Of a stretch of 33,200 bases of DNA, positions 8,342 to 27,268 are shown piece by piece. The stretch comes from Candidatus Curtissbacteria bacterium (lineage in GTDB: Bacteria > Patescibacteriota > Microgenomatia > Curtissbacterales > GWA2-41-24): NCBI GenBank assembly GCA_024654445.1, contig JANLHP010000006.1, positions 1-33,200 on the forward strand. Direction: 5' to 3'. A program made the position numbers and the translations under genes. Position 1 is the stretch's first letter, and each line of letters begins with the position of its first letter. The notes beneath the pieces were generated by a model that did not search any database, was not told where the DNA came from, and worked only from the letters and a program-made list of their open reading frames with translations.

Positions 8342-8688
8342 ACTTGTTGATCGTAAAAAATATAATATAGAAAATTATGATCGCTACCATCAGTATGAGA
8401 AAAATGTATAACAGATGTTGTAGCATAAGCATTATATCCAGCACTCGGATTATATAACCATCCTAACTGGAATAAACCACTTCCTAAATCAACAAAAAAA
8501 GCAAAAAATGGAATATATCCTAAATTATGGGTGACTTCTGCACTCCCTCCAGTTGGAACATTTATTACTCCACGATCAAACTCTTTAATTAATACATTGT
8601 CTTGATCTGAATATAGAGAAAAATGGTCAGGATCTGTATCGGTCAATGCGTTATATCCTGGCAATGCAACTCGTATAACATTTGTCAT
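8338..8688 (-). CDS. Small fibre-like paralogue 3 of 3 (116 aa)
   Basis: It starts IRVALPGYNALTDTDPDHF, matching the shared N-terminal block. VTHNLGYIPFFAFF in the middle is the second shared block. The remaining beta-rich part is specific to this copy and ends in aromatic residues (FLYYIFYDQQV). The start codon overlaps the stop of the 164-aa fibre gene. No membrane segment or enzyme motif. Confidence 0.6.
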   Translation of the reverse strand: MTNVIRVALPGYNALTDTDPDHFSLYSDQDNVLIKEFDRGVINVPTGGSAEVTHNLGYIPFFAFFVDLGSGLFQLGWLYNPSAGYNAYATTSVIHFSHTDGSDHNFLYYIFYDQQV

Positions 8689-13627: not shown

Positions 13628-14683
13628 TCATAGCGTTGTTGAGTATTTATCCGTATAAGTATTACCTACTGTTGAGTATTTATTCACATACTCGGCAGGA
13701 GAAGGGGAAGCGCTGGCTGAGGCGCTTTGCGACAAAGAAGCCGAAGGACTAAGAGACGGACTGGCTGAGCGACTGCCCGATGCTGAAGCACTAGCTGACG
13801 CGCTAGCTGAACTACTTGCACTAGGAGAAAGACTGGCACTGGCACTCATTGACTCAGAAGCTGATTCACTGGCACTCATTGATGCAGAAGCACTTTTACT
13901 TGCTGATTTAGATTCACTAGCAGAAGGACTTAAACTTTGGCTTGCTGAAGCGCTAGCACTACGGGAGGCTGAACGAGAGGCACTGGCAGACTCGCTTGCT
14001 GAAGGGCTTAAACTAGCCGATGCCGATTTCGACGCGCTTGCGCTTGCAGACGCGCTCGGTGAAAGCGATGTGCTCGGACTCAACGATGGGCTTCCTTCTC
14101 CTGATCTAATATCATCCCAAAAAGCCGTTCCTGTTGTTGAAGTAGATTGCGCTAAAACCACATGGGTAATACTTGTAAAACCGTTATTCCCAATATCAGC
14201 AACGTAAGTTGAATATGTTCCCCCATCTAATCTTGCCCGAAACCTTGAATTGGCTTGATCAATTTCAATATCAACTTCATACCATTGATTAGCATTAGGG
14301 GAAGCAGATAAAACCTCAGTTGTATTACCGACAAGACTAATCCCAGCATCAGCATCAAAAAGAAGACGAACTTGGTCATTTGCACTGCCTGATGCACTCC
14401 TTAAAGTAAATGCAAATGTAATTGACCCTGCGGCAACTGAGGATTTTCTAATTGCTACATGGACTATACCTGAAGTAACACCTGTTGTTAATTGTCGTTC
14501 ACTAACCGCATCGGCTTCGCTTAAAGAAACTGCCTTTGCACCTTCAAAAACAGTCGTCCCTTGGACTTGAGGTCCTGTTCCAGTTACGGCTGTCCAAGCT
14601 CCAGCCCAACCAGTACCCCCATTATTGGTGGCTAAATTACCATCCGAATATGTGTTGAAATTTTCAATTGCTGTCCACGACAT
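13628..14683 (-). CDS. Lectin-like fibre protein with Ser-X stalk (351 aa)
   Basis: Residues 1-195 form a beta-rich domain resembling a concanavalin A-like/LamG jelly roll. Visible markers are WTAIENFNTYSDGNL at the start, WYEVDIEIDQANSRFRARLDG in the middle, and TGTAFWDDIRSG at the end, a common closing strand of such domains. Residues 196-327 are Ser-X repeat. The tail (328-351, EYVNKYSTVGNTYTDKYS) is clearly related to that of the 879-aa protein. This suggests both stalks attach through the same C-terminal module and present different heads. It has a strong phage promoter element ending 6 nt before the ATG. A role in glycan binding on host cells is likely but inferred. Confidence 0.75.
   Translation of the reverse strand: MSWTAIENFNTYSDGNLATNNGGTGWAGAWTAVTGTGPQVQGTTVFEGAKAVSLSEADAVSERQLTTGVTSGIVHVAIRKSSVAAGSITFAFTLRSASGSANDQVRLLFDADAGISLVGNTTEVLSASPNANQWYEVDIEIDQANSRFRARLDGGTYSTYVADIGNNGFTSITHVVLAQSTSTTGTAFWDDIRSGEGSPSLSPSTSLSPSASASASASKSASASLSPSASESASASRSASRSASASASQSLSPSASESKSASKSASASMSASESASESMSASASLSPSASSSASASASASASGSRSASPSLSPSASLSQSASASASPSPAEYVNKYSTVGNTYTDKYSTTL
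13703..14098 (-). repeat. Ser-X coding repeat of the lectin-like fibre gene
   Basis: Encodes residues about 196-327 as alternating Ser with Ala, Leu, Pro, Glu, Lys, Arg or Met, with recurring SLSPSASES units as in the neighbouring 879-aa gene. Confidence 0.88.
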
Positions 14684-14720: not shown

Positions 14721-16367
14721 TTATTGGAGGGTGGCTACGAGGTTTTCGGTAAGTTCCCAACCGGGAATTATAGTATCATGCTCTTCCCAGTTAATAAGCA
14801 GTTGTTGGTTTCTGTACTGATCTTTTCTCCACCTTTGACCAGTTGCATTGGCTCCATGCTTTATGTCTACATTTGGAAGATCTGATTTCCATGTGTCGTG
14901 CTTAAACTGGTTTTTCCACTCAATTCTTCCGTGGGTGAAAGGCTCGTGGCCCATATGCCTAATAAATCTGTTAAATTCTTCTGTAGACAGTTCCCGTTCT
15001 TTTTCCTCAATTAACTTAAATCTCTCCCGATAGTGGGTCAGCGCTGCGTCTCTAAAAACACACATCCCAGAAAGTTGGTTTACATCGTAGTGCAGAGCGT
15101 GTCCATCGGGCATCCTCAAAAACCAGACGTTCTGATTAAAATAGAAGGTGTTCTCGTCTTCAGGTACAAAGTCAAAATGTGAAGGGTGATATAGAACGTC
15201 GTGTTCTGTGAAAAAGATTATGTCACTTTTGCTGTTTTCCAACGCTCCCAAGATTTCCTTATACATTGCCACATAGCCACGCTTCAGAGAAGGAAAGCGC
15301 ACATTCTTAACCCCAAAGTCCATCTTCTTCAAAGAAGCACTGACAATACTTATCTTCTTATCCTTGCTTATTTTCTGTAATCTATCCCTCACAGGCTTGG
15401 CGATTTTCTCATCAAGCTGATTGTCGGTATAGTAAATTGCTCCTTTTGAGATGCCCCAATCCGGCGGATTAAACTTATCAAGTATCCACTGAAACTTACG
15501 AGTTGCCAAAGGCCAATTATCTTTTTGGAATAATTCCCGCGATAATTCCCGATTAGCATTGACTTTGTCTTGAGGGTTAGGATATGGGAAACCAAAGTCA
15601 CCGCCGCGAGTGCGGAACATATGGGCATACCAAGTATCAATATTTGAAATAACCTGCCCGCCCGAGAGCCACATTTTACAAGCAACCTCGACGCCTTGTT
15701 GCCCCCAACTGTGGAAGTCCTCACTGCATATATCCAGCTCAAACCATTTTTCTTTTGTAATCATAAAACACGAGCCTTGTATACTCATTGTTTCCCTATA
15801 GTTAGGATTTCCATTAACCCCCTTTAGGTTTTCAGGGTCTTTTGCCAGTGCTCCATGGTATTGGAAGTGCATCGTCTTATCAAAGCGGAAAGTAAAAGTA
15901 AAAGGGCTTTTCTTGGGAATCCAGACAACATCTTTTGTAGTGGGTTTGCCACACGTTTCACAAGGACCGGAGGGGCTCTGGTAGCGCCTGTGGCCGTCTG
16001 GGCATACCCAGTCAAAGGCGTGGAGGTTACGCATACCGGGGATTATTACCGCATTGTCTCCTATATCCTCAAAAGCTTTAAGCATTTTGCGGTCAAAACC
16101 CTTGTCAAAAGCGACGTGGGCATCACACTTCATTAAGTATTTTCCTTTTGCAATCTTTGCGGCTTGGTTTGTTCCCGCCCGTTGGCCTACCGAAACAGGG
16201 TTATAAATTACGGTTACTTTGTCACTTACTGGCAGTGGAGGATTAGGCAAATAGCCATCTAAAATAGCGATAATTTCGGTGCTGGCCTCACTATTGTCGA
16301 GAATGTCCTGAATAGTCCGGGCTAAAAATTCTTCCTGCCTCGCGGGGATTAAGATGGAGAGATCCAT
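14721..16367 (-). CDS. Two-domain glycosyltransferase with GT2 domain and inserted zinc-ribbon-like loop (548 aa)
   Basis: Residues 1-about 300 are a GT2-type transferase: LSILIPARQEEF at the nucleotide-binding start, KCDAHVAF (80-87) in place of DxD, and a C-terminal W-x-L-D-K-F-N-P-P-x-W block shared with the two other GT2s in the window. Between residues 122 and 140, CPDGH plus CETCG form a Cys/His cluster absent from those relatives. Residues about 338-520 look like a second GT-A-like domain: KISIVSASLKK, then FFTEHDVLYHPSHFDF with E388-H389-D390 as a DxD equivalent. It would transfer two sugars or act bifunctionally from NDP-sugars. The start follows AAGGAAC, and it overlaps the upstream gene by 19 nt. 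Last gene of the cassette. Confidence 0.8.
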   Translation of the reverse strand: MDLSILIPARQEEFLARTIQDILDNSEASTEIIAILDGYLPNPPLPVSDKVTVIYNPVSVGQRAGTNQAAKIAKGKYLMKCDAHVAFDKGFDRKMLKAFEDIGDNAVIIPGMRNLHAFDWVCPDGHRRYQSPSGPCETCGKPTTKDVVWIPKKSPFTFTFRFDKTMHFQYHGALAKDPENLKGVNGNPNYRETMSIQGSCFMITKEKWFELDICSEDFHSWGQQGVEVACKMWLSGGQVISNIDTWYAHMFRTRGGDFGFPYPNPQDKVNANRELSRELFQKDNWPLATRKFQWILDKFNPPDWGISKGAIYYTDNQLDEKIAKPVRDRLQKISKDKKISIVSASLKKMDFGVKNVRFPSLKRGYVAMYKEILGALENSKSDIIFFTEHDVLYHPSHFDFVPEDENTFYFNQNVWFLRMPDGHALHYDVNQLSGMCVFRDAALTHYRERFKLIEEKERELSTEEFNRFIRHMGHEPFTHGRIEWKNQFKHDTWKSDLPNVDIKHGANATGQRWRKDQYRNQQLLINWEEHDTIIPGWELTENLVATLQ

Positions 16368-17128
16368 TTTTTGTTCCTTTCGAGTAATGATCCGGTAATT
16401 TCCGGATCATAACCAACCGACTCAGCCCATGCTTTCCAAGCATAAACATCTTTTGGTATGCACTTTGAGTTCATTCCCCGGTTGTCCGGGTAAATCATCG
16501 TCCACCATAGGTTGAATCTGGGATCATCTCCATAAACCGCTTGAATTACAGTGTAGTAATCAACCCCTGCCTTCTCACATACATCATAAAGCTCTTGGCA
16601 TTGTGCAACTTTAAAAGCAATTGCCCTGTTTTCACTAAGCTTAATAACTTCTGCTTCTTTACAAGTTACTTGTCTAATAGAAATGTTGGCATTATAAACA
16701 GTTGTATAAAGTTCGATTAACTTTTTTCTGGCTTTTGGCTTACCGCCAATAATTAAAAATGGTCTTGTTTTTGGGTCAAGTAGTGGATGTGCTGGAGTTT
16801 CACCTAAATATTCCGGTTGATACACCAAATCAATTCCCGGCAAATATGGCATATTATCACAATCACCAGGATTTAAAGTTGAACGAATAACAATAAGTGG
16901 ACATTTACACCATTCAATAACCTCTTTAACTATAGAAACATCTAATCTACCTCCATCAATTAAAGGGGTTGGCACGCAAATAAAAGCTACGTCACTCTTA
17001 TTTACTTCCTGTTTATCTTTTTCGCTGGCATGAGTGGGAATATACGGGTCATAAATAGCCGCATCTGGGAAAAGTTCATTCATTGCACCACCGACCCAAC
17101 CCATACCAATAATTCCTACATTAGTCAT
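16349..17128 (-). CDS. Short UDP-glucose/GDP-mannose dehydrogenase-like protein
   Basis: I place the start at ATG 17128 (MTNVGIIGMGWVGG), preceded by AAGGG; an in-frame upstream ATG at 17152 lies inside the previous gene. The N-terminal Rossmann fold has GMGWVG. YQPEYLGE matches the conserved catalytic-Glu region. EAEVIKLSENRAIAFKVA matches the central helix with its catalytic Lys. GMNSKCIPKD carries the catalytic Cys. At about 259 residues it lacks the C-terminal UDP-binding domain of the 400-450-residue family. It may still oxidise a sugar nucleotide to a uronate, or act on another substrate. It overlaps the phosphatase gene by 8 nt. Confidence 0.8.
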   Translation of the reverse strand: MTNVGIIGMGWVGGAMNELFPDAAIYDPYIPTHASEKDKQEVNKSDVAFICVPTPLIDGGRLDVSIVKEVIEWCKCPLIVIRSTLNPGDCDNMPYLPGIDLVYQPEYLGETPAHPLLDPKTRPFLIIGGKPKARKKLIELYTTVYNANISIRQVTCKEAEVIKLSENRAIAFKVAQCQELYDVCEKAGVDYYTVIQAVYGDDPRFNLWWTMIYPDNRGMNSKCIPKDVYAWKAWAESVGYDPEITGSLLERNKKWISPS

Positions 17129-17471
17129 GCAAATTCCCTTCGTGTAGTCCAACTATCTTGTCTGCCTCAAATAGCGCCCTAGCCCTCGCGAGTAAATCTT
17201 TATTGTGCGGTCTTGGATATTTATCCGGGCCAATATCGTAGAACTTAACTTTCGACTTATATTCTTCTGGAATCAAAGAAAGAAGTCTTTCTTCAGGAAC
17301 GGTAATTACGTCTGCCCATTCAAATAGCATCCTCAAGGTTTCAGGTGAGTGATATTTCAATCCGGCAGTCAAAGTCTCGAAACCTTCAACGTATTTTAAA
17401 AGCCACGCCATAGTTACCGATCTATTGTTTCCATGTTCGCAAACACACAAAATATGCTTTTTAGATTGCAT
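17121..17471 (-). CDS. Low-molecular-weight protein-tyrosine-phosphatase-like protein (116 aa)
   Basis: HILCVCEHGNNRS near the N-terminus is a phosphatase P-loop (Cys-x5-Arg-Ser) in the LMW-PTP position, after a beta strand. ADVITVPEERL resembles the later conserved strand. DIGPDKYPRP near residues 83-92 may supply the general acid usually found in a D-P-x-Y element. The protein is slightly shorter than the usual 140-160 residues. Within an NDP-sugar operon it could dephosphorylate a sugar phosphate or regulate a kinase; neither can be told from sequence. It is preceded by AAGGAG about 12 nt from the ATG, so this segment may be translated independently. Confidence 0.7.
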   Translation of the reverse strand: MQSKKHILCVCEHGNNRSVTMAWLLKYVEGFETLTAGLKYHSPETLRMLFEWADVITVPEERLLSLIPEEYKSKVKFYDIGPDKYPRPHNKDLLARARALFEADKIVGLHEGNLHD

Positions 17472-17503
17472 AATACAATTTAACTCCTTTTGTAAACTTT
17501 CCT

Positions 17504-18442
17504 TTATTTATCATTCAAAATGGTTCTCCTCAACCCCTCTTCCAAGCTCACCTTTGGTTCCCAGCCTAATACTATTCGAGCTTTCCTAATATCAGCCAAT
17601 GTCTGAGACGGTTCGTATTGTGCGGGGTTAGGGGTGGGCTCAATTTCTTTCCCCATAAGCTTACGGATAGTCGCAAGTAGCTCATTGATAGAATTGTTTG
17701 TGCCCGAACCACAATTAAATATCTCCCCATGAACATCCGACTGTGCCATCAACATAAGTAGCTCTACTATGTCGTCAATATAAATAAAGTCTCTTCTTTG
17801 CTCGCCGTCTCCAAACTTTACAAAAGGAATGTCTTTTTTGAGAGCATTAATGTAAGTGGCAACCGCACTTGTATAAATTCCTTCAACTGGCATCCGAGTT
17901 CCGTATGCGTTAAAAGGCCGAATAGCGTTAAATTCTAATCCGTATAGTTTCTCGAATAACTGGCAATATTGCTCCCCAATTAGCTTGGAAAGAGCATAGG
18001 CATTCATCGGGTTAGGCTTCACGTCTTCCGGCGTAGGATATAGTTCCTGCTCTCCATAAAGATTAGAGCTGGACATAAAAACTACTCTTTTAACCTTGTT
18101 GTCACGACAATGTTCTAAAACTTTTACAGTACCATTTACATTTACCTGGTCCGTTTCCGAAGCGTGTTCAATTGACCACTGTGGGCGGGTAAGGGCTGCT
18201 AAGTGGAAGACCACATCAACTCCTTTAAATAAACGGCCAACGTCGCCCAGAATGTCAGTGTCATAAACGGTCAGTCGCGGGTCGTCTGGCAGATTCGCAT
18301 ACTTACCATGAGAAAAATCATCAACAATGGTTATCTCGGTTCCATGTCCATCAATAACCGCAACCTCGCTGTCTTCTTTAAGCAGTCGGTCAACCAAATG
18401 ACTGCCAATAAATCCCGCTCCTCCGGTGACTAAATATTTCAT
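17504..18442 (-). CDS. NAD-dependent sugar-nucleotide epimerase/dehydratase (SDR)
   Basis: A 312-residue extended short-chain dehydrogenase. TGGAGFIGSH is the NAD-binding G-x-x-G-x-x-G. FMSSSNLYG and YALSKLIGEQ (the Y-x-x-x-K catalytic pair) follow in order. RPFNAYGTRM and RRDFIYIDDIVELL are standard C-terminal substrate-binding markers. The length is complete. It is closest in pattern to UDP-glucose 4-epimerase, GDP-mannose dehydratase and similar enzymes; the exact substrate cannot be read. It overlaps the isomerase gene by 4 nt and would modify the nucleotide-sugar made by the upstream kinase and nucleotidyltransferase. Confidence 0.88.
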   Translation of the reverse strand: MKYLVTGGAGFIGSHLVDRLLKEDSEVAVIDGHGTEITIVDDFSHGKYANLPDDPRLTVYDTDILGDVGRLFKGVDVVFHLAALTRPQWSIEHASETDQVNVNGTVKVLEHCRDNKVKRVVFMSSSNLYGEQELYPTPEDVKPNPMNAYALSKLIGEQYCQLFEKLYGLEFNAIRPFNAYGTRMPVEGIYTSAVATYINALKKDIPFVKFGDGEQRRDFIYIDDIVELLMLMAQSDVHGEIFNCGSGTNNSINELLATIRKLMGKEIEPTPNPAQYEPSQTLADIRKARIVLGWEPKVSLEEGLRRTILNDK

Positions 18443-18840
18443 AATAGTTTTTTAATTGCGTGTGCGAACCTTAAATGTTCATTTTCCAATTTCTCAAAGT
18501 CCCGATCTTTGCCAAAAATTTCGAATTCATAAGTTTTTATTCCTATAAATTTTGCGTATGCTAATGCCTCTACAATATTCGCGGAAGTTCCACTACAAGA
18601 AATTGTTATAAATAAATCCTCTCTATCGGCATAAATTTCTAATTGCTTGCTAAAGACTTGATCGTACCCAAAATCGTTAGCGATCATGGTCATAATCGAA
18701 GTGTTGCTGCTCAAATTAATTGCCTTAATTCCTTTAGAAAATAAGTCGTTAGTAAAATGCTCGGCATTGGCTGAACTGCCGCCATTACCACAAATAAAAA
18801 CAAGTCGCGCTTTTTTAATCTGTTCAATCAGTTCCTTCAT
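18439..18840 (-). CDS. gmhA: Phosphoheptose isomerase-like SIS protein
   Basis: A 133-residue SIS-fold protein. FICGNGGSSANAEHFTNDL matches the phosphosugar loop and following helix of GmhA, and ISCSGTSANIVEAL is the second SIS loop. The C-terminal LENEHLRFAHAIKKLL resembles the GmhA helix carrying the catalytic His. GmhA turns sedoheptulose 7-phosphate into D-glycero-D-manno-heptose 7-phosphate. This copy is shorter than the usual 190 residues because the N-terminal helices are missing. It overlaps the HddA-like kinase gene by 4 nt. That pairing strongly supports heptose chemistry, although another phosphosugar isomerisation is possible. Confidence 0.78.
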   Translation of the reverse strand: MKELIEQIKKARLVFICGNGGSSANAEHFTNDLFSKGIKAINLSSNTSIMTMIANDFGYDQVFSKQLEIYADREDLFITISCSGTSANIVEALAYAKFIGIKTYEFEIFGKDRDFEKLENEHLRFAHAIKKLL

Positions 18841-19769
18841 TTTTGTATGTTAAAAATCACCTTGCTACCGTCTTTTGACAGATTAAATGGAAGCTCCCGA
18901 AGCCCTAACGCCTTTCTAACAGCTTCTTTTTTCTCAGGTGGTACTACTAGAAGCAAAAACCCTCCACCACCGGCTCCGACAATCTTTCCGCCTAATGCCC
19001 CTGCCAATAAGGCTTTGTAATAAGTCCGTTCGATAAAATCGTTAGTAACAGATTTATTAAGCTGTTTTTTTAGTTGCCAGTACTCATCAAGAAGACTACC
19101 AAAATGTAAAGGATTATTTAAGGCATCAACTCCTTTGTAGGCAAGCTCCTTATTTAAATCAAGTATTTTTTTCTTAAATTGTGTATTTTTAAGTATTTTT
19201 TCTGATTTTCTTGTAATTCCAGTGTAAAAAAGCATAAAGTAGTTATTAGTTTCAGTACTTAGAGAGAATCTCAAAACGTTTTTACCAAATTCAAAAAAGT
19301 TTAATCCGCCAAAACCTATCGCATATTGGTCCTGATACCCGATAGGTTTCTTAAGAATGTCTATCTCTATTTGGCAGGCCTCCTCCACCAACTGTCTTGC
19401 CGCTACGCTTCCCCCTTTGTAGTTATGCAAGGCATTTAGCACTCCAACTGTTACAGCGCTGCTCGACCCTAATCCTGATCCTTCGCTAGGAATATCAGAT
19501 AAAAAAGTAATTTCGATGCCTTTATCTACTCCCACCAACTTCATCGCTTCCCTGACTAAATCGTGTTTGATGTCATCAACCTTATTTACCTTTTCTTTAA
19601 CGGAATAGTTAATATAAATCATGTCGTCAAAGCGTTCTTTAACAATTACATAAACATATTTATCAATCGTGGTAGTTAAAACCGCGCCACCATACTTTTT
19701 AAAGTATTTTGGGAAATCAGTATTGCCACCTAAAAGCGAGATTCTGAGAGGAGTCTGGGTAACTATCAT
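18837..19769 (-). CDS. hddA: GHMP kinase, D-glycero-D-manno-heptose 7-phosphate kinase-like
   Basis: A 310-residue GHMP kinase. TPLRISLLGGNTDFPKY is the N-terminal substrate motif seen in HddA-type kinases. PSEGSGLGSSSAVTVG (about 92-107) is the ATP-binding motif 2. GGKIVGAGGGGFLLLV is the C-terminal motif 3. All three GHMP motifs are intact. In the GDP-heptose pathway this enzyme phosphorylates heptose 7-phosphate at C1. It overlaps gmhA and the nucleotidyltransferase by 4 nt each (ATGA), so the three are a coupled module. A close relative acting on fucose or another sugar cannot be excluded. Confidence 0.8.
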   Translation of the reverse strand: MIVTQTPLRISLLGGNTDFPKYFKKYGGAVLTTTIDKYVYVIVKERFDDMIYINYSVKEKVNKVDDIKHDLVREAMKLVGVDKGIEITFLSDIPSEGSGLGSSSAVTVGVLNALHNYKGGSVAARQLVEEACQIEIDILKKPIGYQDQYAIGFGGLNFFEFGKNVLRFSLSTETNNYFMLFYTGITRKSEKILKNTQFKKKILDLNKELAYKGVDALNNPLHFGSLLDEYWQLKKQLNKSVTNDFIERTYYKALLAGALGGKIVGAGGGGFLLLVVPPEKKEAVRKALGLRELPFNLSKDGSKVIFNIQK

Positions 19770-20176
19770 GCTTCTTTAACCCTTTCTCTTAAACCAGATG
19801 TGTGTATATCTAGTGAATCTATATAAATTATCGGTATACCCATATCAGTTATTTTTTTATCACCATTCTTGTAATCTGATCCTAAAAACCTTATATCTAT
19901 GTTGAAAATTTGCGCTAAAAAGGGTAACTCATTTTCTTTTTCATAAACGATAACCCGGTCAACATACCTACAACCCCATAGCTTTAATTGTCTTTCTAGA
20001 ATCGTTTCAATAGGCTTATTTTTGTAAGGTTTTTGATAGCTAGGGTCAACATGAAGACCGACAATCAATTCATCACAATATTTTTTACACTCTCTTAATA
20101 GGTGTATATGCCCAGCGTGGAGAAGGTCAAAAGATCCGCAAACAAAACCTTTAACTTCACCAACGGTTTTTTTCAT
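19766..20176 (-). CDS. Sugar-phosphate nucleotidyltransferase (cytidylyltransferase fold)
   Basis: A 136-residue protein. GSFDLLHAGHIHLLRECK has the HxGH nucleotide-binding motif near residue 22, and HTSGLRERV near the end is the (S/T)-T-S-x-x-R-x-R motif. Both active-site signatures of TagD/RfaE-C-type nucleotidyltransferases are present at the expected spacing. It would couple CTP or ATP to a sugar or polyol phosphate. Next to GmhA- and HddA-like genes, activation of heptose 1-phosphate is the likely reaction. The substrate is inferred, and glycerol 3-phosphate is an alternative. It overlaps both neighbours by 4 nt. Confidence 0.82.
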   Translation of the reverse strand: MKKTVGEVKGFVCGSFDLLHAGHIHLLRECKKYCDELIVGLHVDPSYQKPYKNKPIETILERQLKLWGCRYVDRVIVYEKENELPFLAQIFNIDIRFLGSDYKNGDKKITDMGIPIIYIDSLDIHTSGLRERVKEA

Positions 20177-20739
20177 TTATCCAACTCCTTCTTCTGTAAA
20201 GTACAAATTATTTGATTGTACCTACTCTCACCGCCATTATTTATAAATTGAATCTGAAAGCCAAAATCTTTTAAGTCAAACGTCTCTGTGTTGTTAGTAA
20301 AAATGCCATCTTGTTTGGCGTTCCAGTGGTGCAAATATCCTGTTGAAAGTTGATCGAGCGCACAATTTATATAAACCCAGCCACCAACCTTGCATACACG
20401 GATCATTTCTTTGACTGATTCTTTGGCATTTTTAGTATGATCTAAGGCATTAAGGCAGTGAACAATATCAAAAAAACCATCTGGGTATGTTAATTTCTCC
20501 ATATTCTGCTGTTCTACTGAAATAACAGAAGTTAATTGGCGCTTTCCCCAATACTCACTAAAATCTTGCTTATCACAATGATAAATCTCAACTTTGATTC
20601 CAGGTAAATATGATCCAATCATGGAGAATGGGCCGGAACCTACGTCGACTATTTTAACTTCTTTTTTATCCCCAATCAGGGGTAAGAGATAATCTACAAG
20701 TGGTAAAGGTTTATTGAATTTTATATAAGCTTTAGTCAT
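20173..20739 (-). CDS. Class I SAM-dependent methyltransferase (Methyltransf_11 type)
   Basis: A 188-residue protein. VKIVDVGSGPFSMIG is SAM motif I. A strand with an acidic end (EIYHCDKQD) is motif II. YPDGFFDIVHCLNALDHT matches motif IV, with the common H at the end of the helix. KVGGWVYINCAL is motif VI. The N-terminal KFNKPLPLVDYLLPLIG could be the substrate lid. It overlaps both neighbours by 4 nt (ATGA). In this cassette a sugar or glycan O-methyltransferase is likely; the acceptor is unknown. Confidence 0.8.
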   Translation of the reverse strand: MTKAYIKFNKPLPLVDYLLPLIGDKKEVKIVDVGSGPFSMIGSYLPGIKVEIYHCDKQDFSEYWGKRQLTSVISVEQQNMEKLTYPDGFFDIVHCLNALDHTKNAKESVKEMIRVCKVGGWVYINCALDQLSTGYLHHWNAKQDGIFTNNTETFDLKDFGFQIQFINNGGESRYNQIICTLQKKELDK

Positions 20740-21296
20740 TGTTTAAAGAACATCCAACAAGGTACTAGTCTTCCTCCTCCTCTAAATTCAAAAAGTGGCG
20801 CTATATGGTTTTCTTCTGTGTATTCTTGAACGGCTTGAATTACTCCATAGTTTCTAGTTGGATCTTCTTTGTAGTCGTGGCCGGCAACAATTCCTCCTGG
20901 TTTAACTTTTTTAGTCCATTCGGTAATATCTTCTAAAACGTATTCGTAAGAGTGGTTGCCGTCTATGAAAACGAAATCATAAAAATTATCTGGTATGTGT
21001 TTGACAACCTCCATGCTTGTATTCCTGTCTATATGACAATCGTAAGAAGCTACTCTTTGCAAAGCTTCTTTATAGATTTGTTCCATTTCCTCTTGACTGT
21101 GAATTTCTTCGCCTTCTGTATATGCCAAATAAGGGTCAACACAAAGCAGATCTAACCCCGGTATCCCCTCTAAAAGTTGTTGTGCGTATTTACCATGATC
21201 CGTACCTATTTCAACACCAACCTTAGCCCCTCGCTCGGCAAGCATCTGTATAAACTCACGCCTCCTGCTAAAATGGTTTATTTGTAATTGGGTCAT
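20736..21296 (-). CDS. Class I methyltransferase (Methyltransf_24 type), copy A
   Basis: A 186-residue protein. VGVEIGTDHGKYAQQLL is SAM motif I. LLCVDPYLAY holds the motif II acid. YDFVFIDGNHSYEYVLEDI is the signature D-G-N-H-x-Y stretch of Methyltransf_24. KPGGIVAGHDY is the later metal-binding-like H-D motif. It is clearly paralogous to the next gene upstream (21268-21954): same order of motifs and similar length core. Members of this family include O-methyltransferases acting on sugars of antibiotics and glycans. The start codon lies inside the neighbouring gene (29-nt overlap). Confidence 0.8.
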   Translation of the reverse strand: MTQLQINHFSRRREFIQMLAERGAKVGVEIGTDHGKYAQQLLEGIPGLDLLCVDPYLAYTEGEEIHSQEEMEQIYKEALQRVASYDCHIDRNTSMEVVKHIPDNFYDFVFIDGNHSYEYVLEDITEWTKKVKPGGIVAGHDYKEDPTRNYGVIQAVQEYTEENHIAPLFEFRGGGRLVPCWMFFKQ

Positions 21297-21954
21297 TTTT
21301 AGGTTTTACGATAAACCAGCTTCTGTAGCGGTCTCTTTTGAGCCCTTTGTCCGTTGGAGTAACTAGGAACACTGGTAATAGGTGATAAGCCGTTGTGTAG
21401 GCATTGACGACCTTCTGGACGTGGTTAAATTTGCGTGAAGGGTAGCGGACGTAGTCGTGGCCTGAAAGAATACCGCCGGGGCGTATTTTTTTCAGCCAGT
21501 AGTGAATGTCTTGGGCTACATTTAGAAAATCATGGTTGCCGTCAATGTAAACAAAATCTTGTGAGTTATTCCCAACTACCTTGACTACTTCCATTGAAGG
21601 TTCTCGAATAATATGGCACTTGCTGTCGTAAGGTTTAAGCCGTTCTACTGTTTCCTCATACCTTTTATCAAAAAATTCCTGATTCTCACCTGACTCTGGC
21701 TGTTGACCGAGTTCATAAGCCTCAGCCATCCAAGGATCTATACATAAAAGGGTTAAGTCAGGTACGGTTTTCATAAGAACTTCTGCATATTCTCCCTGGT
21801 CTGTACCAATTTCTACGCCTTCTTTAAATCCTAGCTCAGCAAATAAATGAGCTAAGCCTACTGCCCCTATCAGTTCTGGAATTTCAATGAAGTATTGGTT
21901 CGCAACAGTGATTTTGTATTTTTTTACTATGTAATCCAAAGTATCTACTCCCAT
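21268..21954 (-). CDS. Class I methyltransferase (Methyltransf_24 type), copy B
   Basis: A 228-residue paralogue of the adjacent gene, with motifs in the same order: GVEIGTDQGEYAEVLM, LLCIDPWMAEAY, DFVYIDGNHDFLNVAQDI and RPGGILSGHDYVRYPSR. It has a longer N-terminus (about 45 residues) and a C-terminal extension with RYRSWFIVKPK. A strong GGAGG site 4 nt before the ATG shows it is independently translated. Tandem duplication and divergence suggests two methylation positions or two sugar acceptors. Overlaps both neighbours. Confidence 0.8.
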   Translation of the reverse strand: MGVDTLDYIVKKYKITVANQYFIEIPELIGAVGLAHLFAELGFKEGVEIGTDQGEYAEVLMKTVPDLTLLCIDPWMAEAYELGQQPESGENQEFFDKRYEETVERLKPYDSKCHIIREPSMEVVKVVGNNSQDFVYIDGNHDFLNVAQDIHYWLKKIRPGGILSGHDYVRYPSRKFNHVQKVVNAYTTAYHLLPVFLVTPTDKGLKRDRYRSWFIVKPKNDPITNKPF

Positions 21955-22466
21955 AGATCCTCCAAGCCTTGAAAATTAGAAAGCACTGTGGCGTGCCTAT
22001 CGTCTTTATCCCAAACCCGCTTGTGCTTAAATAAAGGGTAAATCTCAGAATAGTGGTAGTTCTTTTCGTGCCTCTCGTTAGAGTCGTGGGCAATAATGTA
22101 TTTAGCCTTGTTGGCAAGTTTTTTAATTGTCTCTTTTCTGGAATCGTCAGGCGTCTGGTCAACCAAAACAACGTCCCACTGTTTATCTATTAAGGGTGAC
22201 TCTTCGTAAACGTCAACCAGTTCTAGCTTGTGGTACTTGTTCTCGTACAAAAAGTGCATGAAGTCTGAGGTTTTGAATGTTTTTAACCAGCCGGGGTCGT
22301 TTTCAAGGGATAGCAGGTTTCGTTTGCCAATAGTGCAGGCGTAGTGGAGATAAGGAGTAGACCCCAATCCTATTCCAAGCTCCAATATATCTCCATCAGT
22401 TTTATTAACACACGCTATCAATGCTCCTAAGTGGGTAAAATACGAGCCACTGTACGGTTTAGCCAT
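21945..22466 (-). CDS. Putative SAM-binding methyltransferase-fold protein (173 aa)
   Basis: DGDILELGIGLGSTPYLHY (about 24-42) is a class I SAM motif I. LLSLENDPGW has the motif II acid, and WDVVLVDQTPDDSRKETI a motif IV-like strand with Asp. AKYIIAHDSNERHE is a motif with His-Asp reminiscent of the neighbouring Methyltransf_24 proteins, but more divergent. A GGAGG site precedes the ATG, and it overlaps the neighbouring glycosyltransferase gene by 8 nt. Catalytic competence is uncertain because the substrate side is poorly recognisable. Confidence 0.68.
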   Translation of the reverse strand: MAKPYSGSYFTHLGALIACVNKTDGDILELGIGLGSTPYLHYACTIGKRNLLSLENDPGWLKTFKTSDFMHFLYENKYHKLELVDVYEESPLIDKQWDVVLVDQTPDDSRKETIKKLANKAKYIIAHDSNERHEKNYHYSEIYPLFKHKRVWDKDDRHATVLSNFQGLEDLWE

Positions 22467-23370
22467 TTTGCTCCCTCCATTCTTGTAATTTTTCTCTCCA
22501 ATCAGGATCCCACGTCGGCATTGGCATAAATTTATCTACAAACCACTCGAATTTAGGGTGTTTTAACCAGTATTCAGCCGTTAAGTTATAGGTTCGCTCG
22601 GTTGCTACTTTATCTTCTGGATAACCTCTATCTTTAGAATCTTGGTGTAAATGTGCGTACCAAGTCTTTTTATTAACCATGACCTTACCGCCTTCAACCC
22701 AGTTCTTTAAGGCAATCCACAATGGCTCTTGCCCATGACCGTATGGATCAGTAATTGGGAATCCACCTAACTCAAAAAACCTGTCTTTGGTCATAAACCA
22801 GCCAGAGCCATGAATTTGTGGGGTTTCATCAATAAAGAAACTATCTATACCTTCTTTAGTATTAACAATCCCAAACTTTCCATTACCAAATTTTCTCTCC
22901 TCTGTTCTCTCTGGCCAGTGACCACCAGCCTTAAATCTTAAACCTCTTTTATCTGTAAACGGACAACTAAGATAAAAGTAGTCATAAAACCTATCATCCT
23001 GCCATTCCCACGTTTCGCCATTCAAAACATAGAATCTTGGAGTAACCACCCAATCATCTTGCATATCAGCCTGTAGAATCTCGTCAAAGCCCTTACCAAA
23101 GGCACAATGGGCGTCTGACTTATAAATGTATTTACCAGTAGCTAGCGCTGCGAGTGAGTTTATATTTGTTTTGATACCTACATTTACAGGAAATCTAATT
23201 ATTTTTAAATTTGGGAATAAATCTTTTGGAATATCATTAAAAGGTTCTCCATTTAAACCAACTATAACTTCACATTCACCCGTAGCGTTTTCATAAATAC
23301 TTTTAAGAGTCCTGAAAATATTTATGTCTTTCTCTCCACAACTAGGTATAATAATACTTACTTTAGCCAT
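22459..23370 (-). CDS. GT2 family glycosyltransferase (303 aa)
   Basis: VSIIIPSCGEKDINIFRTL starts a GT-A fold. CEVIVGLNGEPF continues the nucleotide-binding core, and KSDAHCAFGKGFDEIL holds the DxD-equivalent (Asp-Ala-His). PQIHGSGWFMTKDRFFELGGF is the acceptor-side loop typical of GT2 N-acetylgalactosaminyl/polypeptide-like transferases. WYAHLHQDSKDRGYP and FEWFVDKFMPMPTWDPDW are shared with the two other transferases here. It would move a sugar from an NDP donor to a glycan or protein. The start overlaps a 34-aa membrane peptide ORF by 13 nt, and the end overlaps the methyltransferase gene. Confidence 0.85.
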   Translation of the reverse strand: MAKVSIIIPSCGEKDINIFRTLKSIYENATGECEVIVGLNGEPFNDIPKDLFPNLKIIRFPVNVGIKTNINSLAALATGKYIYKSDAHCAFGKGFDEILQADMQDDWVVTPRFYVLNGETWEWQDDRFYDYFYLSCPFTDKRGLRFKAGGHWPERTEERKFGNGKFGIVNTKEGIDSFFIDETPQIHGSGWFMTKDRFFELGGFPITDPYGHGQEPLWIALKNWVEGGKVMVNKKTWYAHLHQDSKDRGYPEDKVATERTYNLTAEYWLKHPKFEWFVDKFMPMPTWDPDWREKLQEWREQNG

Positions 23371-23462
23371 TTTTCAGTCAACCTTAGTAAAAATCCTGCA
23401 ATCAAACCCATTAAAGCTATATCTATATAGCTGAATCTTTTTTGTGTAAGAAATTTAATCAT
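23358..23462 (-). CDS. 34-aa single-pass membrane peptide between two glycosyltransferases
   Basis: The ATG at 23462 overlaps the TGA of the preceding glycosyltransferase (ATGA). The product is MIKFLTQKRFSYID followed by the hydrophobic helix IALMGLIAGFLLRL and a basic end (TEKWLK); the stop lies 13 nt inside the next glycosyltransferase. Tight overlap on both sides and a clear membrane helix with positive flanks argue for a real gene. It may tether the transferases to the membrane, but function is unknown. Confidence 0.5.
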   Translation of the reverse strand: MIKFLTQKRFSYIDIALMGLIAGFLLRLTEKWLK

Positions 23463-24355
23463 TGTACCCATCCCATCTCCTTTATCTGTTCTTTCCAGTC
23501 AGCTGGCCATGAAGGCATACCCGGAAACTTCTCGTCAATAAACCAAGCAAAGTCGTGTGTTCTGCCTTCCCACCTATCATTTAGCCAATACTCGGCGCTC
23601 CAACTGTCCGCTTCCACATTACCCCCCGGCATTTTGTAAAATCTTCCATACTGCTTACCTTTGTGTAAATGTGCGTAGAAAGTTTTTTTACTGATGATTA
23701 GCTTTCCCCCACTCAACCAGCACTTAAACCCAATTTCTTGTGCTTCCTGTGCAAATTGACCGTATCCTGTTGCATCCATCAGGTTTAACTTGTCGAAATA
23801 CTCTCTAGTCATAAACCAACAACTCCCTTGCATTGATGGACTCTCTACCAAATCTTGATCTTTGGTTTGATTTCTACGCTCTCTCCATTCAACGCCATGA
23901 GTGCCATCATCATTTGCTTTACCTTTACGAGGAAAGTCCTGATACATTTGAACAATCGGGTACTTATCATCCGTGCGTTCTTCAATTTTCCAGTCCTCCG
24001 CATTTAGAGCATATCGCTGAGGCACTTGCACCCAATCAGGCTGATGGTCTTTTTTAAGAATTTCATCAAAACCTTCACCGAACATTACATGGTCATCGCA
24101 CTTTATAATAAATTCTCCTTTAGACATGGCCACAGCTTTATTTATTCCAGCACGCATACCTATAGGTGAATCCCCATGTATATAATGAACTCTTGCATCC
24201 TCTGAGAGAGGCTCGGGCCATTTTTGCTCTACGTTTACAATTACTTCTATGTCCCCCTTAGCCTTATCAAGAATGTCGGTAATAGTCTGAGAACAAAAGG
24301 GACTGTTATAATTCGGGATGATTACACTTAGTTTTCCTTTAATTTGTTTTTGCAT
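23459..24355 (-). CDS. GT2 family glycosyltransferase (298 aa)
   Basis: LSVIIPNYNSPFCSQTI opens the GT-A fold. DIEVIVNVEQKWPEPL and then KCDDHVMFGEGFDEIL hold the DxD-equivalent (Asp-Asp-His). SMQGSCWFMTREYFDKLNL corresponds to the acceptor loop. FYAHLHKGKQYGRFYK and FAWFIDEKFPGMPSWPADW match the closing blocks of the other GT2s in the cassette. The three are therefore paralogues, probably adding successive sugars to one glycan. The start overlaps the Tad2-like gene by 17 nt, linking it to the regulator/Tad2 unit. Confidence 0.85.
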   Translation of the reverse strand: MQKQIKGKLSVIIPNYNSPFCSQTITDILDKAKGDIEVIVNVEQKWPEPLSEDARVHYIHGDSPIGMRAGINKAVAMSKGEFIIKCDDHVMFGEGFDEILKKDHQPDWVQVPQRYALNAEDWKIEERTDDKYPIVQMYQDFPRKGKANDDGTHGVEWRERRNQTKDQDLVESPSMQGSCWFMTREYFDKLNLMDATGYGQFAQEAQEIGFKCWLSGGKLIISKKTFYAHLHKGKQYGRFYKMPGGNVEADSWSAEYWLNDRWEGRTHDFAWFIDEKFPGMPSWPADWKEQIKEMGWVQ

Positions 24356-24608
24356 CTATTACCACCATCCAATCCTCTCCTTCTAAATCTCCTTGCGAAA
24401 CAGACCATGTATGAAAAGCCCCTTTGGTAAATATCGTCAACCATTCGCCTTTTAAGAATCCGTAGTCTTTATTCCCCCAGGAGATTCTTGCTACTTTCTT
24501 CCCGTTAATAACCTCACGCATAGCATCCGGGAATGACATTGTTATTGATTCTCCTTGGTTTCTCGGAATTGGCGTTAATGATTCGGGTAATGTTTGTTTA
24601 TCCATCAT
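24339..24608 (-). CDS. Tad2-like (DUF2829) protein, candidate Thoeris anti-defence
   Basis: The core runs from SFPDAMREVINGKKVARISW through FLKGEWLTIFTKG to WSVSQGDLEGEDWMVV. This is the family pattern M-x-F-x-x-A-L-x-x-x-x-x-G-K-x-V-x-R-x-x-W with a closing D-L-x-A-x-D-W-x-V-V. Characterised family members (Tad2 of phage SPO1) sequester the cyclic ADP-ribose-derived signal of Thoeris. The start at 24608 follows GAGGG by 6 nt and gives an unusual 25-residue N-terminal extension. ATG 24539, 10 nt after AAGGAG, would give a core-only 66-residue protein of typical family length and may be the true start. It overlaps the RHH gene upstream and the GT downstream. Confidence 0.75.
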   Translation of the reverse strand: MMDKQTLPESLTPIPRNQGESITMSFPDAMREVINGKKVARISWGNKDYGFLKGEWLTIFTKGAFHTWSVSQGDLEGEDWMVVIDAKTN

Positions 24609-24765
24609 TCTCATCCCTCACTGAAGCTGAAGCGCTTACATCTTTGGCTTTTAAGTCTTGAATGTATTTATCTATAGCCCTGCGGATATGCTCAGATTCG
24701 TTGCCGGGGAGTTCTTTTAAAGATTTGAGTTGATCTTCTCTTAAATAGTGGGCAGTCCTGACCAT
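24598..24765 (-). CDS. Ribbon-helix-helix DNA-binding regulator (55 aa)
   Basis: The start at ATG 24765 is chosen because a phage promoter-like element lies exactly 37 nt upstream; an in-frame GTG at 24780 also exists. TAHYLREDQLKSLKELP forms the strand and first helix, and SEHIRRAIDKYIQDLK the second helix of a CopG/RHH fold, where the strand contacts the major groove as a dimer. The C-terminal 18 residues are polar. As first gene of the unit leading to Tad2 and the glycosylation cassette, it may autoregulate that operon, possibly through repeats near its promoter. This role is inferred. Confidence 0.75.
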   Translation of the reverse strand: MVRTAHYLREDQLKSLKELPGNESEHIRRAIDKYIQDLKAKDVSASASVRDENDG

Positions 24766-24802
24766 GTGCCAATGATGCACATGAATTTTTATTTTAAGTC
24801 AA
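24766..24802 (-). promoter_or_regulatory. Phage promoter-like element upstream of the RHH/Tad2/glycosylation operon
   Basis: Minus strand: TTGACT at 24802-24797 and an ATAAAA core in the spacer, 37 nt from TTG to the ATG at 24765, as in the strong elements. The -10 position reads GCATCA and is off consensus, so activity may be weaker or need an activator. There is no other promoter-like gap before 14721, so it may drive the whole cassette. Confidence 0.5.
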
Positions 24803-24812
24803 TAAGGGAAAT

Positions 24813-25109
24813 TTAAAGAAGTGCTATATAAGAAACATCATCACCATTATTATCTGTAATCATATAAAGAAGATTTAAGTTTGGTATTTCAATCCAATCC
24901 GTATCTTGCCCTGCGTCAAGTTCAAACCCCGCAGTTGTATTAGTTTCTGTACCTGGCACAGTTACACCCGCACCGCCAAGATAGACGTTACCGGAATTGC
25001 TTGCTAAGGCTCTAAATTTAACTTTAGAACAGGCAATATCCGGCATTTGGGCGGCTGTTGTTCCTCCCTGTATCTCTCCTGATATTACTGATGTGTAAAA
25101 GTTTGCCAT
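24813..25109 (-). CDS. Small virion structural protein (98 aa), head decoration/fibre type
   Basis: Beta-rich: KVKFRALASNSGNVYLGGAGVTV, then FELDAGQDTDWIEIPNLNLLYMI and NGDDVSYIALL. This strand pattern is common in short phage head-fibre or decoration proteins that carry one jelly-roll-like fold. No signal peptide. The ATG overlaps the stop of the Ser-repeat gene by 1 nt, and no Shine-Dalgarno precedes it, so translation is likely coupled. It is the last structural gene before the RHH/Tad2 unit. Confidence 0.6.
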   Translation of the reverse strand: MANFYTSVISGEIQGGTTAAQMPDIACSKVKFRALASNSGNVYLGGAGVTVPGTETNTTAGFELDAGQDTDWIEIPNLNLLYMITDNNGDDVSYIALL

Positions 25110-26056
25110 TATGGGAATGATATTGATGCACTTGGACTTGGGCTTCCTGATGGCGAAGTTGATGCTGACGGACTGTAAGACGGACTTACCGAGCGTGAAG
25201 CGCTGGCAGATGGGCTTGGACTTCCCGATGGCGACAAGGACGCGCTAGCTGATTTAGAAGCGCTTCCTGACGGACTCTTTGAAGCCGATCCAGATCTCGA
25301 GGCTGACGCACTTGCTGATTTCGATGCACTAGCACTGGCAGAAGCCGAAGCGCTGGCAGAAGCCGAAGCGCTGGCACTAGCAGATGCTGATGTTGACGGA
25401 CTAAGGGAAGGTGAAGAACTAGCAGACGCCGAGGTAGACTGCGACAAAGAAGGGCTAGACGATGCCGATGCCGACGTTGAAGGGCTAAGTGAAGGCGAAG
25501 AACTTGCCGATGCTGACTTAGATGCGCTACCACTGACCGAAGTAGATGGAGATAGTGATGCCGAAGGACTAGACGACTTACTGACAGAACTAGATGGGCT
25601 GGCGCTTTTAGATGCCGACTTAGAAGCTGAGCTTGATGGACTCAAAGAGAAGGACGCTGAGAGAGAAGGACTCAAAGATGTTGATGGCGAAGCAACTGCA
25701 CTCATTACCGCTGTCCAGATAGCAGCAGTAGATGTACCTGTGTTCCTGTATACATTTCCACCGGTTTTATCAAGATCGTAAAACACTGCACCCGTTTTAA
25801 AACCGGAATCTCCGGTAGGCAAAGTATCACCTTCTGCTTCTAAGATATTATCTGTTGAAGCGTGAGCATTTGGATTTTGAGGATCTGTAACCCTATCTGT
25901 GTCCCACCTTAATACTCTGTTATTCCTGTAAGGCTCAAGCGCTGTTAAAAAGTTAGCTTCCCCAGTTGTCCTTTGAGCACTGGCAATCGCCTCAACCCTT
26001 GTGAGTTCGTCCCTTGTTTCTCTTGGTAAATCTAATTTATTTTTGAATACTGCCAT
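25109..26056 (-). CDS. Ser-repeat virion protein next to the capsid gene (315 aa)
   Basis: I use ATG 26056 (MAVFKNKLDLPRE) because GAGGG lies 4-5 nt upstream; the 26086 start has no such site. Residues 1-120 are a polar domain that may dock on the capsid; FKTGAVFYDLDKTGGNVYRN is its most distinctive stretch. From about 123 to the C-terminus the protein is Ser-X repeat (Ala, Pro, Leu, Lys, Val, Gln, Arg), ending SISFP. It lacks the Y-x-x-K-Y tail of the fibre genes. Located directly after the major capsid gene, it may be a head decoration with a flexible glycan-carrying tail. The modification is inferred. Confidence 0.7.
   Translation of the reverse strand: MAVFKNKLDLPRETRDELTRVEAIASAQRTTGEANFLTALEPYRNNRVLRWDTDRVTDPQNPNAHASTDNILEAEGDTLPTGDSGFKTGAVFYDLDKTGGNVYRNTGTSTAAIWTAVMSAVASPSTSLSPSLSASFSLSPSSSASKSASKSASPSSSVSKSSSPSASLSPSTSVSGSASKSASASSSPSLSPSTSASASSSPSLSQSTSASASSSPSLSPSTSASASASASASASASASASASASKSASASASRSGSASKSPSGSASKSASASLSPSGSPSPSASASRSVSPSYSPSASTSPSGSPSPSASISFP
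25112..25690 (-). repeat. Ser-X coding repeat of the capsid-adjacent gene
   Basis: Encodes residues about 123-315. A unit near TSASASSSPSLS is repeated three times in the middle with closely similar DNA, so slippage or recombination-driven length change is plausible. Confidence 0.88.
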
Positions 26057-26106
26057 TTTTCCCTCTAAAAAAAGCCTATTCTCCAAACCTAATGCTCTTT
26101 CATATA

Positions 26107-26161: not shown

Positions 26162-27268
26162 TTAGAATTTCCAGAATCCTAATGCCGCTTGGTGTCTGTT
26201 AATATCTTTTACTTTAGCTCCGTATACGAATAGGTCTTTGTAGGCTGTACCAAAGTCCCCAATTAAATCTTCTTCCATTCGGGCATCAAGTACCTTTTCA
26301 GCAAATGTCATCCAATTCTGGTGTCCGGCTAGAAGATAATATCCGGCTGTATTGTCTCCGTTAAGCCTGTTACTCATAAAGAGTTTGAAGCCTTGTAGTG
26401 TACCCATGAAACCTTTTTTGACTAAATCTTGATATGCTTCGTCTACATGAAGGACTACTCCGGTTCCTTGAGTTAATATTGTGAAGAACTCAGGAGGCGC
26501 GATTAGGAATCTGTCTGTGTCTGGTACTGCTGAATAACCATCTTTCTCTGCTAGATTCAATCTCTGAGCTAGAGTAGCTACTTTATTAAGAATATTTGCC
26601 GCTGTAATAGTAAGGACTGTTGTGGCTTGGATTGTGTAAGTTGCTGTTGCCGCGATTGCTCCGCCTGTGTAGACTGATGTAACATCATCAAGGTCATCTT
26701 CAATGATAATGTCAGTTGTTGAGTTGAAAGTCTTAACTCTGTACCAAGACGTATGTCCGTCTGCTTTGAATGGTCTTCCAACCATTGCCGATGTAAAGGT
26801 CGTTCCATCTCCTGTTACTTGCCCCGTGGTTACATCAACTGTAACCGTTCCGGTTGTTTCATCAGTTCCAACCCAATTTCCGCCTCCAACATCTCCATAA
26901 AGATCAAAGACAAAATTATCCATATTCAATGATCTTTCATTACCAACCTGTTCTACGATATAAGGATGTGGATTCTTAATGTAAGAAAGCCATTTTGCAA
27001 GAGTTTTCTCTTTCCAGTAGAAAGATTTGTATGTATCAATTATTAGCTGACCATTGTTTTCTGTTAGGGAGTCTGCGGTAAGTGCCGCGTCTGCGTAAGT
27101 TTTCTCGGAGAGTTTGCCAAAGTCGAGGATATTGAGCTTAGAACCTATACCATTAATTTCTCCTTCGTAGTTTCTATTAGTTACTTCACCAAGCAAATCT
27201 CGGTCATACACAAACTGCATGACTTTGCTTGAAAAACCTTCGGCTAATTTTGTTCCGTATGCTGACAT
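26162..27268 (-). CDS. Major capsid protein (HK97-fold, P22 coat-like)
   Basis: A 368-residue protein. The N-terminal region (KVMQFVYDRDLLGEVTNRNYEGEI, then GSKLNILDFGKLSEKTYADA) and SFYWKEKTLAKWLSY are usual for coat proteins of this type. Residues about 135-235 are a Thr/Val-rich beta insert (GTVTVDVTTGQVTGDGTTF...), probably an I-domain-like insertion. The C-terminal half (RLNLAEKDGYSAVPDTDRFLIAPPEFFTIL, TLQGFKLFMSNRL) matches the P-loop/A-domain pattern of many coat proteins. It lies between the scaffold candidate and the decoration genes, the normal position. It has an upstream promoter-like element and a structured 60-nt leader with a hairpin next to the ATG, but no Shine-Dalgarno site. 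Confidence 0.85.
   Translation of the reverse strand: MSAYGTKLAEGFSSKVMQFVYDRDLLGEVTNRNYEGEINGIGSKLNILDFGKLSEKTYADAALTADSLTENNGQLIIDTYKSFYWKEKTLAKWLSYIKNPHPYIVEQVGNERSLNMDNFVFDLYGDVGGGNWVGTDETTGTVTVDVTTGQVTGDGTTFTSAMVGRPFKADGHTSWYRVKTFNSTTDIIIEDDLDDVTSVYTGGAIAATATYTIQATTVLTITAANILNKVATLAQRLNLAEKDGYSAVPDTDRFLIAPPEFFTILTQGTGVVLHVDEAYQDLVKKGFMGTLQGFKLFMSNRLNGDNTAGYYLLAGHQNWMTFAEKVLDARMEEDLIGDFGTAYKDLFVYGAKVKDINRHQAALGFWKF

Follow-up and report, generated by a model that had tools for sequence, protein, structure and literature searches.

A candidate phage-encoded system for O-glycosylation of serine-repeat virion proteins, with GalNAc-transferase-like enzymes and counterparts in Patescibacteria chromosomes

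Mucin-type O-glycosylation is started by polypeptide GalNAc-transferases (CAZy family GT27) and is usually regarded as eukaryotic. In streptococci and lactobacilli, serine-rich repeat proteins (SRRPs) contain (Ser-X)n tracts, have dedicated glycosyltransferase (GT) genes adjoining their own, and depend on GtfA/GtfB as initiators, on accessory Sec for export and on anchors in the cell wall. Chloroviruses and mimivirus decorate their particles using virus-encoded GTs, methyltransferases and sugar-nucleotide enzymes, a machinery for which we know of no linkage to Ser-X tracts. Here we analysed a stretch of 33,200 bases (the window), which is the entire contig C6 (JANLHP010000006.1) of a Candidatus Curtissbacteria metagenome-assembled genome (MAG; 1.04 Mb, 96.7% complete). 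The contig is of the tailed phage type and was binned with this Patescibacteria MAG. Inside its virion module, on the same strand and between genes for proteins with serine at every second residue (Ser-X genes), lies a cassette of fourteen close-packed genes (14721-24614). From sequence and predicted fold, we consider it likely that this phage O-glycosylates its Ser-X virion proteins and that cellular loci and the phage have these genes in common.

Virion glycosylation itself is already known. In the mycobacteriophages Che8, Corndog and Myrna, phage-encoded GTs glycosylate proteins of the virion (Freeman et al. 2023, cited in PMC12363180), and Corndog has an O-methyltransferase and GTs between its portal and protease genes (PMC4351075). 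The window phage likewise has GTs and, as in Corndog, methyltransferase genes within its structural genes. In the mycobacteriophages, however, few genes modify the capsid and tail-tube C-termini, whereas the cassette of the window type comprises 10-15 genes, includes its own sugar supply and lies beside dedicated Ser-X proteins. The mycobacteriophage virion proteins are glycosylated; glycosylation in the window phage is predicted from its genes. Similar to SRRP loci, the window combines long Ser-X repeats with neighbouring dedicated GTs, but no SRRP initiator, accessory Sec or cell-wall anchor was recognised in it; no Sec component was recognised at all, and the domains recognised in the cassette GTs are GT2 only, not the GT4 type of the GtfA/GtfB initiators. 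The chloroviruses and mimivirus differ in being eukaryotic viruses with different GTs. Caulobacter phage Cr30 and Synechococcus phage SynMITS9220M01 resemble the window in that genes for an HddA-like kinase, a GmhA-like isomerase, an epimerase and GTs are clustered, and the regions examined in these two phages contained no GT of the family described below (A1) and no Ser-X tract. The first-pass annotation of this DNA had known of no described system of this layout, while allowing that one might exist. In a non-exhaustive literature search we found no paper on the combination of GT27-like GT, Ser-X tracts and cassette, but virion glycosylation with GT and methyltransferase genes in the structural module was already described in mycobacteriophages. 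What appears to be new is this enzyme class, its substrate and its chromosomal twin.

Four genes of the window encode strict Ser-X tracts, with runs of 192, 132, 404 and 68 residues, respectively, and about 398 Ser sites in all:
25109..26086, minus strand: SX325, a conserved N-domain of ~120 aa followed by a 192-residue Ser-X tract ending ...SASISFP
13628..14683, minus strand: SX351, a globular N-domain, a 132-residue Ser-X tract and a C-terminal EYVNKYSTVGNTYTDKYS motif
10821..13460, minus strand: SX879, in which repeated globular domains alternate with stretches of Ser-X (48+126+230 = 404 residues)
9175..10782, minus strand: conserved protein of the virion module that carries, close to its N-terminus, a Ser-X insertion of 68 residues

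The strict tracts of the first three genes flank the cassette, in agreement with the first-pass annotation. That annotation had also placed a repeat inside a nozzle-like gene; the repeat is there (9175..10782), but the nozzle identity found no support, since the profile of this protein reaches the PDB solely via the Ser-rich tract. Ala and Pro dominate the X positions, followed by Lys, Leu, Glu and Val. The tracts mix all six Ser codons, with switches between TCN and AGY codons, and Tandem Repeats Finder detected short, weak arrays at most. With all six codons in use and hardly any repetition in the DNA, it is in the protein sequence that the Ser-X pattern is maintained. The chance background was one such tract in 120 loci of random-15-mer control contigs. 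Further Ser-X genes occur in phages of the family, the largest tract content being 1064 residues in one protein. No N-terminal signal or membrane segment was recognisable in the Ser-X proteins. The gene for SX325, a probable glycosylation substrate, is located directly downstream of the capsid gene. Its N-domain was modelled with a pLDDT of 88.7, and a fold search with this domain against the PDB gave no match. The PSASISFP end (25109-25140) is common to several SX325 homologues, though the preceding tract varies, and is possibly an assembly or recognition tail. SX879 ends with the motif YVDKYS...GNTYGDKYS, and a C-terminal YxxKYSxxGNTYxDKY motif is common to SX351 and SX879.

The cassette encodes three GTs, all with Pfam GT2 domains, as the first-pass annotation had claimed:
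23459..24355, minus strand: GT298, GT2/GT27-like glycosyltransferase, named here as the first gene of the cassette
22459..23370, minus strand: GT303, second GT27-like glycosyltransferase
14721..16367, minus strand: GT548, GT27-like glycosyltransferase with a second domain fused to it, the last cassette gene

We aligned the three GTs with homologues from other contigs (alignment A1, 48 sequences). Among the positions invariant in all 48 sequences are D87, H89 and H229, an Asp-x-His motif and a distal His, which we take to be the metal-binding residues of GT27 enzymes. In a search of the PDB with the A1 profile, the 14 best sequences were polypeptide GalNAc-transferases, with matches spanning the entire GT-A domain (E 2.5e-17), and other bacterial GT2s scored lower and were mostly matched in the N-terminal part. 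The alignment puts DaHC and the distal YAH onto the corresponding residues of GalNAc-T1 (DaHC, GHVFR). An AF2 model of GT298 (pLDDT 90.6) was then used in a fold search, where all 50 PDB matches listed were polypeptide GalNAc-transferases, the best of these 50 having an E value of 3.2e-17 and a TM of 0.73 on the query. The window GTs thus share with GT27 enzymes the GT-A fold, the Asp-x-His motif, the distal His and Ser/Pro/Ala-rich repeats as (here putative) substrates. They differ from them in having no lectin domain and a fold-aligned identity of about 14-21%; since the lectin domain is missing, we call them GT27-like and not members of GT27. Sequence and predicted fold suggest that GT298, GT303 and GT548 are GT27-like enzymes. 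GT27 enzymes transfer sugar from UDP-GalNAc to Ser/Thr; for the window GTs, Ser is a putative acceptor. The second domain of GT548, which the first-pass annotation had called GT-like, occurs as stand-alone genes of ~215-260 aa in other cassettes; this C-terminal half had no sequence match in the PDB.

The first-pass annotation had proposed comparing relatives for joint occurrence of repeats and cassette, and we did so in three samples. In loci picked by the capsid protein alone, a Ser-X gene was found in 38/38 loci with at least 500 b downstream, and a GT in 21/23 loci with at least 2.5 kb and 19/19 with at least 3.5 kb downstream. The second sample comprised records picked by Ser-X DNA alone, using a mixed TCN/AGY codon pattern because a TCN-only pattern gave mostly chance matches. 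An A1-like GT was present in 19 of the 31 records with at least 100 Ser-X residues, a limit for long tracts that was fixed after the data were seen, and in 20/32 once record G034 was added. G034 has a 500-residue Ser-X tract near two GTs and had first been placed in the short-tract class (40-99 residues), which after this move had a GT in 0/19 records. Random-15-mer control records, a set that leans to cultured phages, had a GT in 0/30 (Fisher p 2.8e-8 for long tracts versus controls, on contigs that share ancestry); without four records that also fed A1, the comparison was 16/28 versus 0/30 (p 3.8e-7). The third sample, contigs picked by GT, had Ser-X tracts on most of the distant GT-bearing contigs too, including a 45 kb record with a 220-residue tract located elsewhere on it. 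Ser-X genes lay within three genes of a GT in 20 of the 23 contigs outside the capsid family (expected 13.7, p 0.001 in a gene-order test; permutation of base coordinates was uninformative since it allowed overlaps). Contig G014 has the same sandwich, Ser-X - GT548-like ... GT298-like - Ser-X, with weak similarity to the window terminase and no match to the window capsid protein. Repeats and cassette are thus found together in the capsid-selected loci and also in unrelated contigs. A search of 50,697 phage records for relatives of the capsid protein, GT548 and GT298 found none.

The interpretation given in the first-pass annotation is partly supported. Its central proposal, that the phage glycosylates its own Ser-X virion proteins, withstood the tests made here: the GT27-like sequence and fold, the co-occurrence and the virion-module position all speak for it. 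Several points weigh against it. Likeness to GT27 is no proof of a protein acceptor, and the ricin-type lectin domain of the GalNAc-transferases is missing, the 298-aa GT298 consisting of GT2 domains only. Synteny alone places the Ser-X proteins in the virion, and the system is known here from genes, homology and predicted fold, from which we infer both the glycan and its location on the virion. No GT was detected in 12 of the 32 long-Ser-X records; most of these are short fragments, but two measure 31 kb and 26 kb, so that phage fragments having the repeats without such a GT do exist. The heptose genes described below are absent from some relatives (G013, L045 and L047).

The other cassette genes encode the following:
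24339..24614, minus strand: Tad2-like (PF11195) small protein (E 6.9e-10)
21945..22466, minus strand: MT173, class-I methyltransferase-like by motif, conserved in cassettes
21268..21954, minus strand: MT228, methyltransferase (Methyltransf_24)
20736..21296, minus strand: MT186, methyltransferase (Methyltransf_24), a paralogue of MT228
20173..20739, minus strand: MT188, methyltransferase (Methyltransf_11)
19766..20176, minus strand: HldE-C/cytidylyltransferase-like sugar-phosphate nucleotidyltransferase, by homology
18837..19769, minus strand: HddA-like D-glycero-D-manno-heptose 7-phosphate kinase (GHMP)
18439..18840, minus strand: GmhA-like sedoheptulose-7-phosphate isomerase, a short SIS domain
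17504..18442, minus strand: NAD-dependent sugar-nucleotide epimerase/dehydratase, by homology
17121..17471, minus strand: small CX5RS cysteine-phosphatase-like protein with weak LMW-PTP/YwlE similarity
16349..17152, minus strand: compact UDP-glucose/GDP-mannose dehydrogenase-like enzyme with CxPKD, without the C-terminal domain

The cassette thus combines three GT2-class GTs with methyltransferases and sugar-nucleotide enzymes, several of them heptose-pathway-like, and most neighbouring genes overlap or abut, as expected from the overlapping operon that had been annotated. Three of the four annotated methyltransferases have Pfam domains; the fourth, MT173, had no Pfam family match. The annotated sugar-nucleotide enzymes (dehydrogenase-, GmhA-, HddA- and HldE-C-like proteins and the epimerase) were confirmed as homologues, mostly under equivalog cut-offs. 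The GmhA- and HddA-like matches are strong yet under the curated cut-offs, and the best PDB match of the kinase is HddA. No HAD protein that could be GmhB was recognised in the cassette, and the CX5RS phosphatase-like protein is present in the operon. By sequence, the supply genes resemble a nucleotide-heptose pathway (GmhA-HddA-GmhB-HddC/HldE) with scores under curated cut-offs. Compact dehydrogenase-like enzymes of about 250-267 aa that keep CxPKD but lack the C-terminal domain are conserved in phage and chromosomal cassettes; in most relatives the enzyme has 249-260 aa. Most relatives also have the Tad2-like gene (Thoeris anti-defence 2-like) immediately upstream of the first GT; it may serve defence evasion or nucleotide/sugar binding in the cassette. 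On contig C22 of the host MAG (L004, 47000-62000) there is a further polysaccharide locus, distinct from the cassette, that includes an epimerase gene, a GmhA-like gene and an HddA-like gene (about 40% identical).

The window cassette proteins have no credible transmembrane segment; a hydrophobic stretch of the HddA-like kinase (residue 258) was judged a false call. Family searches recognised no lipid-carrier (initiating) transferase, flippase or polymerase among them, and the cassette is therefore unlike a surface-polysaccharide locus. This bears on an alternative in which the cassette, for superinfection exclusion or serotype conversion, remodels a surface glycan of the host, the Ser-X tracts being mere disordered spacers. 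Phage GTs that modify host antigens are known from the literature and the host MAG does own a heptose/polysaccharide locus, but besides the lack of recognised membrane functions, the GTs are most like protein O-GTs, the cassette sits in the virion module, and GTs track Ser-X genes even where capsid-family homology is not recognised. We consider this alternative unlikely. Hypermodification of phage DNA by sugars on bases, a reaction type of which phage GTs are capable according to the literature, appears far less probable still, given the virion-module position, the Ser-X linkage and the fact that no nucleotide-base-modifying enzyme was recognised beside the cassette.

Relatives keep the order of the cassette, with GT298 first and GT548 last. 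GT303, MT228 and the compact dehydrogenase are usually present, and the heptose-like trio, the epimerase and the other methyltransferases come and go. Varying supply genes between constant end GTs are as expected if an exposed glycan is under diversifying selection.

Beyond what the first-pass annotation had covered, related loci occur in host-type chromosomes. A second cassette was found in the window's own MAG, on contig C12 beside GAPDH, S1-domain and RadA-like genes, and ends in a Ser-X gene 42% identical to SX879. A1-like GTs were detected in 6/380 genomes of a phylum sample, one of the six (G202) being a tail-bearing phage contig, and in 23/374 genomes of a class sample. The complete 916 kb genome G674 carries a GT and Ser-X locus in its chromosome. 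In the chromosomal-type loci of several genomes, genes for a Y1-transposase/SH3 protein and a ~211-aa membrane protein lie beside the cassette, and in four loci tatC (Pfam TatC) adjoins a giant Ser-X gene. The ~211-aa protein has a conserved K/R-R-x-F-L-K motif and a hydrophobic stretch, and is Tat-signal-like. In the class sample it was present in 23/23 GT-positive genomes versus 30/351 others (p 2e-22), and in 21 of the 23, by our reading, one contig carries both its gene and the GT, no more than about 8 kb apart. The 30 additional class genomes carry it without a close GT. With its Tat-like KRxFLK motif in an internal position, it marks loci L475:13389-14021 (C12 of the window's own MAG), L507, L509, L515 and L517. 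Neither the ~211-aa protein nor the Y1-SH3 protein was found when sought in the phage loci. Y1-transposase/SH3 genes stand on both sides of the Ser-X/GT loci L509/L510 (G688) and L517/L518 (G681), hinting at mobility; the chromosomal loci may be mobile in origin or derive from phages.

A tree of 104 GTs was built, in which chromosomal GTs interleave with phage GTs and well supported branches force at least 11 label changes, which argues for repeated exchange of the GT genes between phages and chromosomes. The presence of related loci in bacterial chromosomes also suggests a common way of making a coat, used by the phage and by its host. Alternatively, the chromosomal loci could be primary, either for a surface glycoprotein linked to Tat or as an element that came from a phage and was domesticated, with the phage copy mainly as cargo that alters host Ser-X proteins during infection. 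The constant company of the Tat-signal-like protein in GT-positive genomes, tatC at the border of four loci and the locus in the window's own MAG fit such an arrangement. However, in the phage the cassette is tightly linked to Ser-X genes of the phage itself, and neither the membrane protein nor the Y1-SH3 gene was found there; we regard this alternative as quite improbable. A broader proposal, which we advance only tentatively, is that O-glycosylation of giant Ser-X proteins by GT27-like enzymes is a mucin system of bacterial type, encoded in Patescibacteria chromosomes next to the Tat-signal-like membrane protein and sometimes tatC, that this system has moved repeatedly between Patescibacteria cells and phages, and that virions wear a host-type methylated glycoprotein coat.

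Under the favoured reading, glycosylation of its own virion proteins by the phage, the cassette would be a late, cytoplasmic protein O-glycosylation module that acts before virion assembly. The phage would make mucin-like Ser-X virion proteins, one encoded beside the capsid gene and two large ones encoded on the far side of the cassette, as well as a Ser-X insertion in another virion-module protein. GT298, GT303 and GT548 would put the first sugar on Ser residues of the tracts and then extend it, the sugar-nucleotide enzymes would provide unusual donors that probably include a heptose, and the methyltransferases would cap the glycans. The assembled virion would carry dense methylated O-glycans, perhaps under diversifying selection, and the phages would share this coat chemistry with cells and exchange genes with them. 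The glycan might serve host-type surface mimicry, shielding or adhesion; the sharing with the host favours mimicry, and the variable supply genes favour evasion or diversification. If this holds, prokaryotic, phage-borne GalNAc-transferase-like enzymes and their Ser-X substrates would form a compact protein-glycosylation gene set, suggest in concrete terms what phages of episymbiotic Patescibacteria show on their surface and offer a testable case of surface chemistry common to phage and host. Patescibacteria phages have been reported with O-antigen nucleotide-sugar genes, read there as auxiliary metabolism, and some of these could be reinterpreted as possible virion-decoration genes.

All main genes of the window are on the minus strand. 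They run in the order terminase, portal, scaffold, capsid protein, SX325, 98-aa protein, Tad2-like protein, the rest of the cassette, SX351, SX879, the conserved protein with the Ser-X insertion and more virion-module genes, with portal and scaffold assigned by position. The context genes are:
30664..31914, minus strand: terminase large subunit, by family/profile matches
26162..27268, minus strand: HK97-type major capsid protein (phrog_267, E 6.2e-10), which marks the virion module
24813..25109, minus strand: conserved 98-aa protein between SX325 and the cassette, kept in relatives and with no family match in a profile search

There are relatives of 39-47 kb, which suggests that the window contig is incomplete. 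The phage host is probably a Patescibacterium, because a contig of the same phage family lies in a Candidatus Woesebacteria MAG, both assignments being made by binning. Pfam places a RelA/SpoT domain (E 6.7e-12) in a 655-aa virion-module protein (3147-5114); this protein may be internal to the particle or ejected, and the domain may be (p)ppGpp-synthetase-like. Three tandem genes at 7530-8688 start alike, with ALTDTDP, ALTSTDP or ALTETDP near the N-terminus, and are probable paralogues.

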